Shown piece by piece: positions 52,261 through 54,825 of a stretch of DNA of 64,000 nt (its first letter is position 1; each line of letters begins with the position of its first letter). Both the position numbers and the translations under genes were made by a program. The notes beneath the pieces were generated by a model. The model saw only the letters and a program-made list of their open reading frames with translations. It was not told where the DNA came from and searched no databases. Origin of the DNA: an uncultured Myxococcales bacterium (GTDB lineage: Bacteria > Myxococcota_A > UBA9042); NCBI GenBank assembly GCA_903842345.1, contig CAIMLR010000036.1:1-64000 (forward strand), in the 5' to 3' direction.

Positions 52261-53676
52261 TCAATGGCCGCTCTTGGCCGCCTTCGCCGCCGCCTGACGC
52301 GCCTTCTTCTTCGCCGTCCAACCTTCAATGTTCCGCTGCTCGGTGCGCGAGAGCGCCAACGCGCCCGCGGGCACGTCGTGGATGATCGTGCTGCCCGCGC
52401 CGACGTACGCGTCATCGCCCAGCGTCACCGGCGCAACGAGCTGCGTGTCCGAGCCGATGAACACGCCCGCACCGAGCGTGGTCTTGAACTTGTTCACGCC
52501 GTCGTAATTGCACGTGATAGTGCCGGCGCCGATGTTGCAGCCCGGGCCAATGTCCGCGTCGCCGAGGTAGCTCAAGTGGCTGGCCTTGGCGCCCACGCCG
52601 AGCTTGGCCTTCTTGGTTTCGACGAAATTGCCGACTTTGACGTCCGCGGCGAGCTCCGTCCCCGGCCGCAGATGGGCAAAAGGCCCCACGTGCGCGCCCG
52701 GACCCACCGACGCTTCTGCCGCGACGCTGTAGGCCAGAAAATGCGCGTTCGCCGCCACCGTCACATCGCGCAGCACGCAGCCGCGATCGATGCGCGCACC
52801 CGCGGCCACCCGTGTCTGGCCGCGGAGTTCCACGCCAGCACCCAGGCTCGCGTCGGGCTCGATCTGCACCGTCGTCTCGATCCAGGCCGTCTCCGGCTCG
52901 TCCATGGCCACGCCCGTCATCATCCACGCGTGATTGATGCGCTTGCGCAGCACGCCCGTCGCCGCCGCCAGCTCCGCGCGATTGTTCACGCCCTGGATTT
53001 CGTTGGCATCCGCCGCGATCGTCGCGATGCCCGGCCGCCCGGACTCCGCCGCCATGCCGACAAGATCCGTCAAGTACAGCTCCCCCTGCGCGTTGTTCGG
53101 CGTCAGCCGGCTGAGCGACGTCTTCAGAAAATCCGCGCGCACGGCCATCATCCCGGCGTTGACGGCCGTGATGGCGCGTTCCGCCGCGCTCGCGTCCTTG
53201 TGCTCCACGACGCGCGCGATCTCCGCGCCGTTCAGCACCACGCGGCCATACCCCGTCGGATCCGGCACGTGCGCCACCAGAAGGGACAACGGCCGATCGC
53301 CGCGATCGCGCACCAGCGCATCCAACGTCGGCACCCGCAGCAGCGGAACATCGCCATACAGAATCAGCACTTCACTTGCATCCTCCCACGCCGGCTGGGC
53401 GCACAGCATGGCGTGCCCCGTCCCGTTGGGATTCACTTGTTCAATGCACGTAATCGGCAGCGGATTGGCGCGGCTCGCGAGCCAGGATTCCACCTGCTCG
53501 CGGCCATGGCCGGTCACCACAACAATGCGCGTCGGTTCCAGCGCTTCGGCCGCGCGGAGCACGTGGGCGAGCATCGGTTCGCCCAACACCGGATGCAGCA
53601 CCTTGGGCAGACGCGAGGCCATGCGTTTGCCAAGCCCGGCGGCCAGAATAACAACTGTCAACTTCGCCTGCGCCAT
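52261..53676 (-). CDS. glmU: Bifunctional GlmU (UDP-GlcNAc synthesis)
   Basis: A 471-residue enzyme making UDP-N-acetylglucosamine for peptidoglycan and LPS. The N-terminal uridyltransferase has ILAAGLGKRMASRLPKVLHPV and YGDVPLL. The C-terminal left-handed beta-helix acetyltransferase has RPGTELAADVKVGNFVETKK and GAGTITCNYDGVNKFKT. Slightly longer than E. coli GlmU (456). ATG (MAQAKLTV) with AAAGGAGAC upstream; an upstream M is not supported. Divergent from ilvE. Confidence 0.95.
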   Translation of the reverse strand: MAQAKLTVVILAAGLGKRMASRLPKVLHPVLGEPMLAHVLRAAEALEPTRIVVVTGHGREQVESWLASRANPLPITCIEQVNPNGTGHAMLCAQPAWEDASEVLILYGDVPLLRVPTLDALVRDRGDRPLSLLVAHVPDPTGYGRVVLNGAEIARVVEHKDASAAERAITAVNAGMMAVRADFLKTSLSRLTPNNAQGELYLTDLVGMAAESGRPGIATIAADANEIQGVNNRAELAAATGVLRKRINHAWMMTGVAMDEPETAWIETTVQIEPDASLGAGVELRGQTRVAAGARIDRGCVLRDVTVAANAHFLAYSVAAEASVGPGAHVGPFAHLRPGTELAADVKVGNFVETKKAKLGVGAKASHLSYLGDADIGPGCNIGAGTITCNYDGVNKFKTTLGAGVFIGSDTQLVAPVTLGDDAYVGAGSTIIHDVPAGALALSRTEQRNIEGWTAKKKARQAAAKAAKSGH

Positions 53677-53771
53677 TGCCGTCTCCTTTGTCGTCTGTGC
53701 GGCCGCATACGTAGCCGCAAGCCAGATTGTTTGCAAGTTGTCACAGCCCCACAGTAAGCGGGGTTTTGGCG

Positions 53772-53800
53772 TTGTCAGCGGCTTATGGCTGGGCTAGGCT
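53772..53800 (+). promoter_or_regulatory. Sigma70-like promoter of the branched-chain aminotransferase gene
   Basis: TTGTCA (53772-53777, 5/6), a 17-bp spacer, TAGGCT (53795-53800). The start would fall near 53807, that is, inside the inverted repeat that follows. The -10 is contiguous with the left arm of the repeat. Confidence 0.6.
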
Positions 53801-53840
53801 CCTCCCCCTGCCGGTTTCGTTACCTCCGGCAGGGGGAGGA
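53800..53840 (+). promoter_or_regulatory. Perfect 15-bp inverted repeat covering the ilvE Shine-Dalgarno
   Basis: TCCTCCCCCTGCCGG (53800-53814), an 11-nt spacer and CCGGCAGGGGGAGGA (53826-53840). The right arm contains the Shine-Dalgarno AGGGGGAGG, 5 nt before the ATG at 53845. As RNA from an upstream start it would hide the SD; from a start near 53807 only ~8 bp of stem remain, mainly around CTGCCGG. As DNA it could be an operator around +1. Confidence 0.7.
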
Positions 53841-53844
53841 TACG

Positions 53845-54825
53845 ATGTCCGACGTGCGCGTTTGGCTCAACGGCAAGATGGTTGAGGCGGAAGAAGCCCG
53901 CCTTCCACACCTGACTCACACTTTCCACTACGGCCTCGGTGCGTTTGAAGGCATCCGCGCGTACCAGCAACACCAAAGCGGCTACGGCGCGGTGTTTCGC
54001 TTGGGCGATCACATCAACCGGCTGCTGGCGTCCTGCCATCTGGTGACCCTGGATCAGGGCCTGACGTATGACGTGCCGACCCTGTCGCGCGCGTGCGTCG
54101 ACACGCTGATCGCCAACGGCCTGGATGAAGGCTACCTCCGACCGGTGATCTACATCGCCGACGGCGCGATGGGCATCGGCGCCAAGGGCAATCCGATCCA
54201 CGCCATGGTCGCGGCGTGGAAATGGGGCGCGTACCTCGGCGAAGAGGGCCTCGCCAACGGCATTCGCGCGTCGATCAGCTCGTTCAAGCGCCCCGGTCAC
54301 GCATCGGTGATGTCCAAGGCCAAGCTGACCGGCCAGTACATCAACTCGATCCTCGCGAAGCGCGAAGCGGTTTCCAACGGCTTTGACGAGGCGATCCTGC
54401 TCAACGAGCAGGGTTACATCACGGAAGCAACCGGCGAGAACATCTTCATGGTGATCGAGGGCGAACTCGTGACCCCGCCACTCTCCGCCAATATCCTCTC
54501 GGGCATCACCCGCGCGTCCATCATCGAGATCGCCCGCAAGCGCGGCATCCGCGTGACCGAGCGCTTGTTCGCCCGCGACGAGATTTACTGCGCCGACGAA
54601 GTCTTCTTCACCGGCACCGCCGCGGAAGTGACGCCGGTGCGCGAGATCGATCGCCGCACGATCGGCCGCGGCGCACGTGGGCCGATGACGGAAGAGCTGC
54701 AGCAGGCGTTTTTCGACATCGTTCGCGGCCGCAACGACGACTACGCGCACTGGTTGACGCCGTTCAGCTTGGACACACTCGCAGACGGCGAAACGCGCCA
54801 AGCCCGCGTCGCGCTTTCGGTCTAG
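53845..54825 (+). CDS. ilvE: Branched-chain amino acid aminotransferase
   Basis: A 326-residue class IV (fold-type IV) PLP transaminase linking Val/Leu/Ile with their 2-oxoacids and glutamate/2-oxoglutarate. HTFHYGLGAFEGIRAY at the N-terminus, the KLTGQYINSILAK block with the PLP Lys, EATGENIFMV and the PPLSANILSGITR loop are all present. Length slightly above E. coli IlvE. ATG (MSDVRVW) with AGGGGGAGG; an in-frame earlier M would lie before the inverted repeat. Its 2-oxoacids could be substrates for a KOR-type enzyme, an alternative to 2-oxoglutarate. Confidence 0.93.
   Translation: MSDVRVWLNGKMVEAEEARLPHLTHTFHYGLGAFEGIRAYQQHQSGYGAVFRLGDHINRLLASCHLVTLDQGLTYDVPTLSRACVDTLIANGLDEGYLRPVIYIADGAMGIGAKGNPIHAMVAAWKWGAYLGEEGLANGIRASISSFKRPGHASVMSKAKLTGQYINSILAKREAVSNGFDEAILLNEQGYITEATGENIFMVIEGELVTPPLSANILSGITRASIIEIARKRGIRVTERLFARDEIYCADEVFFTGTAAEVTPVREIDRRTIGRGARGPMTEELQQAFFDIVRGRNDDYAHWLTPFSLDTLADGETRQARVALSV

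Follow-up and report, generated by a model that had tools for sequence, protein, structure and literature searches.

The subject of this report is the region upstream of ilvE, the gene of a branched-chain amino acid transaminase, in a 64,000-nucleotide stretch of DNA (the window; positions 1 to 64,000 of contig CAIMLR010000036.1) from an uncultured Myxococcales bacterium (GCA_903842345.1). A perfect inverted repeat, with 15-bp arms that are fully complementary across an 11-nt loop, begins on the final base of the -10 element (53800) and takes in the Shine-Dalgarno (SD) sequence GGAGG, which stands 5 nt before the ATG at 53845. It is held with moderate confidence that the repeat grew from a small core at the transcription start (+1) conserved in the genus, that a single replication template switch extended this core in one lineage, and that the SD lies outside a helix of about 8 bp. 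The repeat, its rarity, the conservation of core and promoter and the lineage-specific extension are observed; from these we infer the start site, the mutational route and the regulatory role. The features are collected in Table 1.

Table 1. Features of the ilvE upstream region and the adjoining genes, in window positions.
Feature	Position	Strand	Remark
-35 element of ilvE, TTGTCA	53772-53777	+	in invariant 15-nt block TTTGGCGTTGTCAGC, four congeners
-10 element of ilvE, TAGGCT	53795-53800	+	within GGCTAGGCT, invariant in four congeners
Left arm of repeat, TCCTCCCCCTGCCGG	53800-53814	+	perfect complement of right arm
TCCCC, candidate template-switch tract	53803-53807	+	run of five derived bases, each agreeing with the right arm read as reverse complement
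Predicted transcription start	53807 (53806-53810 plausible)	+	7 bp after -10, rule of PMC5730371
Core left half, CTGCCG	53808-53813	+	invariant in four congeners, no covariation
CCTCC in loop, alternative anti-SD partner of GGAGG (53835-53839)	53823-53827	+	dominates predicted folds for starts at or after 53808
Right arm of repeat, CCGGCAGGGGGAGGA	53826-53840	+	perfect complement of left arm; holds SD GGAGG (53835-53839)
Core right half, CGGCAG	53827-53832	+	invariant in four congeners
ilvE, branched-chain amino acid transaminase, 326 aa	53845-54825	+	TIGR01122 and NF005146 above cut-off
glmU, divergent neighbour	52261-53679	-	TIGR01173, 564.6 bits

The coordinates and complementarity bear out the original prediction, which had placed the repeat across the promoter exit and the ribosome site of ilvE, with its left arm starting at the -10 element and its right arm holding the SD. 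The same prediction considered a chance origin unlikely, and this was upheld by several counts. Within the window, it is the sole perfect repeat of at least 12 bp with a loop of up to 50 nt. In the part of the genome sampled for repeat counts (2.18 of 5.85 Mb), seven perfect repeats of at least 15 bp with loops of 3-40 nt were found, the ilvE repeat included; four of the other six sit at 200-224 kb on the same contig. It was also the longest repeat upstream of 784 simply predicted gene starts, the next being 11 bp, and the longest perfect repeat in 15,680 shuffled leaders was likewise 11 bp. Because the repeat is the only one of its kind in the window and the longest at these gene starts, and because the shuffles reach only 11 bp, chance is excluded for practical purposes. 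A mobile or repeated element was rejected, as the arm sequence does not occur elsewhere in the window beyond chance expectation. No structured RNA of Rfam matched the window at its gathering score; the best match, to a microRNA model (E 0.22), was far below the cut-off of that model.

The relatives in the genome collection are metagenome-assembled genomes (MAGs) of uncultured Myxococcales and Deltaproteobacteria. The genus comparison covered five genomes (G000-G004), and the ilvE leader was compared in four; the fifth, a fragmented draft, gave no match to the ilvE region. On aligning the leaders, it was found that the promoter and a 6-bp core are kept and that the 15-bp extent belongs to this genome alone. 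The three sister species share the promoter, but their pairing is confined to the core CTGCCG-N13-CGGCAG, with none of the outer pairs of the 15-bp repeat. All 12 core arm positions are invariant across the four genomes, against 4 of 20 other leader positions, namely the 7 nt that precede the core and the 13 nt that separate its arms (Fisher P = 8e-6). The core arms show no covariation across the four leaders. The core begins near +2 and ends shortly before the SD, so that in the three sisters the SD is not paired by the repeat; some of their folds pair part of it through other helices. In family leaders beyond the genus, a TAnnCT -10 element is kept and the ilvE repeat was not found. The core most likely serves as a cis-regulatory site around +1, whether as a repressor operator in the DNA or as a short hairpin at the 5' end of the nascent leader, and the repeat as a whole looks like an ordinary small control element of the genus that has been enlarged in one lineage.

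The spacer between the -35 and -10 elements of ilvE is 17 nt, and this promoter scores below the threshold of a generic promoter scan, yet it is conserved in the congeners. TAnnCT-type -10 elements (TACACT, TAGACT, TATGCT) stand at a comparable position in most of the family, about 35-60 nt upstream of the start codon. Transcription preferentially starts 7 bp after the -10 element, positions more than 1 bp upstream or more than 2 bp downstream of the modal one being rare, and in E. coli a CCT discriminator shifts the start 2 bp downstream, to 9 bp after the -10 element (PMC5730371). That study derived the rule from its own systems with bacterial RNA polymerase, and we carry it over to the present genome by inference. 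Here CCT stands after the -10 element, which gives 53809 as an alternative; ilvE most likely starts at 53807, or at 53809 given this discriminator. The promoter and the +1 near 53807 that had been called earlier find support in the 7-bp rule and in the fact that three congeners conserve both elements.

With all 15 pairs transcribed, the predicted hairpin would reach -34.5 kcal/mol, and the 121-nt stretch around the repeat has a folding z of -3.6. The normal transcript should not contain the full hairpin, because the left arm starts, at its outer end, inside the -10 element; about 8 bp can form. With the conserved -10 element ending at 53800, a start at 53807 would exclude the full left arm from the RNA. 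The helix is predicted to have 9 bp for a start at 53806 and 8 bp for 53807, with the SD outside it. The predicted cost of opening the SD falls from 15.5 kcal/mol for a start at 53800 to 11.1 at 53802, 8.2 at 53804, 5.2 at 53805 and 3.5 at 53806 or 53807, and is 4.8 at 53808 and about 7 at 53809 or 53810. In the 8-9 bp hairpin state, the last two bases of the SD may still be paired, with the beginning of the coding region. The pairing of the SD with the CCTCC of the loop is found in this genome and partly in one sister (L004), and is not conserved in another (L003).

The origin of the 15-bp form was examined against the closest relative, L002, which is sister to this genome in the gene tree (support 0.81). 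The right arm CGGCAGGGGGAGGAT, which holds the SD, is identical in the two genomes, whereas the left flank reads GGTAA there and TCCCC here; the left arm has a new outer half in this genome. An inner change at 53826, which pairs with G53814, also raises the complementarity between the arms. The probability that the seven free outer bases pair by chance is 2e-4, or 6e-5 with the inner pair added. Along the window, 26 runs of at least five mismatches were found against G001 and 42 against G002, and only the TCCCC tract falls in a repeat arm of more than 7 bp.

These observations suggest that the repeat lengthened from 6 to 15 bp in this genome's lineage by a single template switch during replication (quasipalindrome correction), which would have copied the right arm, SD included, into the left flank as its reverse complement. 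In E. coli, as studied with lacZ reporters, template switching makes imperfect repeats perfect (PMC7202029), and it can create RNA hairpins in a single event and has been proposed both to create and to maintain RNA stems (PMC8794818). The ilvE leader resembles such mutations in that an imperfect repeat turns perfect and in that adjacent clustered changes all match the reverse complement of the other arm. The sisters, taken to show the ancestral state, carry an imperfect repeat in which only a short core pairs, and the clustered derived changes are confined to one arm, the other being unchanged. The ilvE leader differs in that the event is deduced from four species and was not seen as a mutation, and in that the tract crosses the edge of the -10 element, the start site and the complement of the SD. 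A single template switch would be the simplest account of the 15-bp form, although not a proven one.

Several points weigh against a conserved core extended in one step. The leader comparison covers only four genomes, with one strain of this species, and the alignment with G004 does not present the TCCCC tract as five consecutive mismatches. The leader outside the arms is highly diverged, which leaves room for serial substitution. When the predicted folds of the three congeners take in codons 9-11, the left arm pairs with the coding region in preference to forming the core hairpin; hence, an RNA hairpin is not clearly the conserved state. Finally, the core pattern is not enriched in the five genomes (5, 4, 1, 6 and 2 occurrences, against 1, 5, 5, 2 and 4 for the reversed pattern), and this count tells against a DNA operator.

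As to what the core does, a DNA operator is slightly preferred over an RNA hairpin because the arms are identical in sequence instead of covarying. Under this tentative proposal, CTGCCG-N13-CGGCAG would be a putative binding site whose dimeric repressor would stop RNA polymerase at +1. The arm centres lie 19 bp apart, about two helical turns, just downstream of +1, a usual position for repressors relative to the promoter, and both arms are the same in all four species. On the other side, of the four further core sites in this genome three were examined, and all lie inside long open frames. A regulon search with the core pattern across the five genomes returned the ilvE site as the only shared one, with no second common target. 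The earlier suggestion of an operator around +1 with a partial hairpin may therefore hold for the 6-bp core and not for the 15-bp extent, which is confined to this genome.

An inverted repeat between start site and SD that can be read either as a DNA operator or as a leader hairpin is known from the CIRCE element, the operator of HrcA. The ilvE repeat shares with it this position, the spacing of the arm centres by about two helical turns and the dual reading. It differs in that its sequence is unlike CIRCE, ilvE is not a heat-shock gene and the site is single in the genome; CIRCE itself (TTAGCACTC-N9-GAGTGCTAA) was rejected, with 0 matches in the window at up to 3 mismatches.

It is possible, if doubtful, that the core acts instead as an RNA hairpin, formed in the nascent leader immediately before the SD, which would affect the life of the mRNA or the accessibility of the SD. 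A consensus 6-bp helix of -9.4 kcal/mol is predicted in all four genomes, and in the leader alone it has a high probability in three of the four and about 0.45 in L004; in this genome it reaches 8 bp with a probability of at least 0.96 for a start at 53806 or 53807. Against this stand the lack of covariation and the absence of any sign of the hairpin elsewhere in the family. The 5' stem-loop of the ompA type is likewise short and lies upstream of the SD, at the 5' end or close to it, but the core stem has only 6 bp in the congeners.

That the extension is a neutral by-product of template switching that does nothing, with a core that also lacks function, is unlikely: the extension is indeed unique to one genome, but both core arms are conserved well beyond the rest of the leader.

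A start-site switch of the pyrC kind, arising from one mutation, is a rather improbable addition. In the E. coli pyrC leader, the choice of start site decides whether a hairpin covers the SD; the start-site work of Liu and Turnbough (1994) is cited in PMC10911233. In the ilvE leader, too, the predicted 5' end falls in a pyrimidine run inside the left arm, and each shift by one base alters the pairing of the SD. The template switch would have altered both the discriminator (to CCT) and the pairing of the leader, so that starts at 53806 or 53807 would keep the SD free of loop pairing and starts at 53809 or 53810 would let the CCTCC of the loop cover it. The two leaders differ in that the allowed ilvE starts give an 8-9 bp hairpin with the SD outside, or the loop anti-SD pairing, and in that the ilvE leader carries no evidence of nucleotide sensing.

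The original prediction had also offered that the SD is locked in a very stable hairpin. Transcription would then start upstream of the repeat, all 15 pairs would form, and translation of ilvE would be blocked until some factor opened the stem. The stability of the full hairpin and the opening cost from 53800 speak for this version, which we regard as very unlikely. By the predicted opening costs, the long repeat could lock the SD only if transcription began upstream of the allowed range, and from 53806 or 53807 the cost is 3.5 against 15.5 kcal/mol, with 9 or 8 bp formed. The divergent orientation of glmU means that there is no read-through operon from upstream, and the outer pairing is absent in all three sisters. 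Least probable of all is an assembly artefact of the MAG through chimeric reads at the hairpin: the source genome is a draft of 50 contigs and the 15-bp form is found in one genome only, but its leader aligns without gaps to L002 on both sides, and only the 5-base tract differs as a block.

With regard to the genes, ilvE scored 373.5 bits against TIGR01122 (cut-off 245.55). A longer N-terminal open reading frame from 53785 was rejected, as it would begin upstream of the predicted transcript start and as the IlvE proteins of the congeners align from the ATG at 53845. No relatives of the region were found among viral contigs. A sequence titled as a Klebsiella pneumoniae MAG (L055, CAMDBH010000010.1) encodes an IlvE that shares 71% identity with this Myxococcota family, and its label is probably wrong. 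On the minus strand at 53700-53770 there is a likely glmU promoter, TTGCAA-17-TACGTA, and a block in this region, GTTTGCAAGTTGTCAC, is conserved in three of four congeners. At 51-110 of the window, two overlapping inverted repeats (19 nt, 89% complementary, and 16 nt, 81%) with runs of T and A resemble a terminator.

Other repeats were noted beyond the window. On the same contig, a stretch of about 34 kb (G000:C36:190385-223775; L129-L132) is rich in the strongest perfect inverted repeats of the contig, of 13-20 bp; an example from it is TTGTTCCCCCAACGGGTCTT at 210675-210726. This stretch appears as if it were an integrated element with terminators or sites of its own. The gene start at G000:C36:155738 (L128, about 14938) has a perfect repeat of 11 bp, CCTCCCGCCCG/CGGGCGGGAGG, with the SD in its right arm; the 264-aa protein that follows has the look of a baseplate spike of a phage or type VI secretion system, as judged by reading its sequence only. 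Similar SD-bearing repeats stand at the gene starts C28:200132 (10 bp) and C47:1416 (8 bp).

The metabolic setting bears on the last claim of the earlier reading, that the repeat suggests control of branched-chain amino acid metabolism. In the five genus genomes, no member of the ilvB, ilvC or leuA families scored over the cut-off and ilvD gave no match, while all 14 control genomes matched in each search, nine of them over the cut-off for leuA. Among 22 family genomes, ilvD is present in one. A reduction of the valine, leucine and isoleucine pathways across Myxococcota has been published (PMC11988736). The genus is predicted to be auxotrophic for branched-chain amino acids even though ilvE is kept. 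Members of the 2-oxoacid dehydrogenase E1 gene family do occur, with no branched-chain substrates assigned to them. Because the biosynthetic enzymes were not found, IlvE more likely serves here in breakdown or interconversion than in synthesis, and end-product control of branched-chain synthesis, the biosynthetic sense of the claim, does not fit as a reason for the repeat. A comparison of branched-chain amino acid regulons had no basis, as the genes were not found in the genus.

On the side of function, the finding amounts to a small ilvE element in an uncultured genus without recognisable enzymes of branched-chain biosynthesis, and its importance is modest. It also carries a warning: where the transcription start is ignored, the prediction of a highly stable SD hairpin can be an artefact. 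If the account given here is right, the leader would be a natural case in which quasipalindrome correction rewrote the promoter and ribosome-site region of a bacterial gene in one step, and the sister species would display the earlier state of the rewritten leader.
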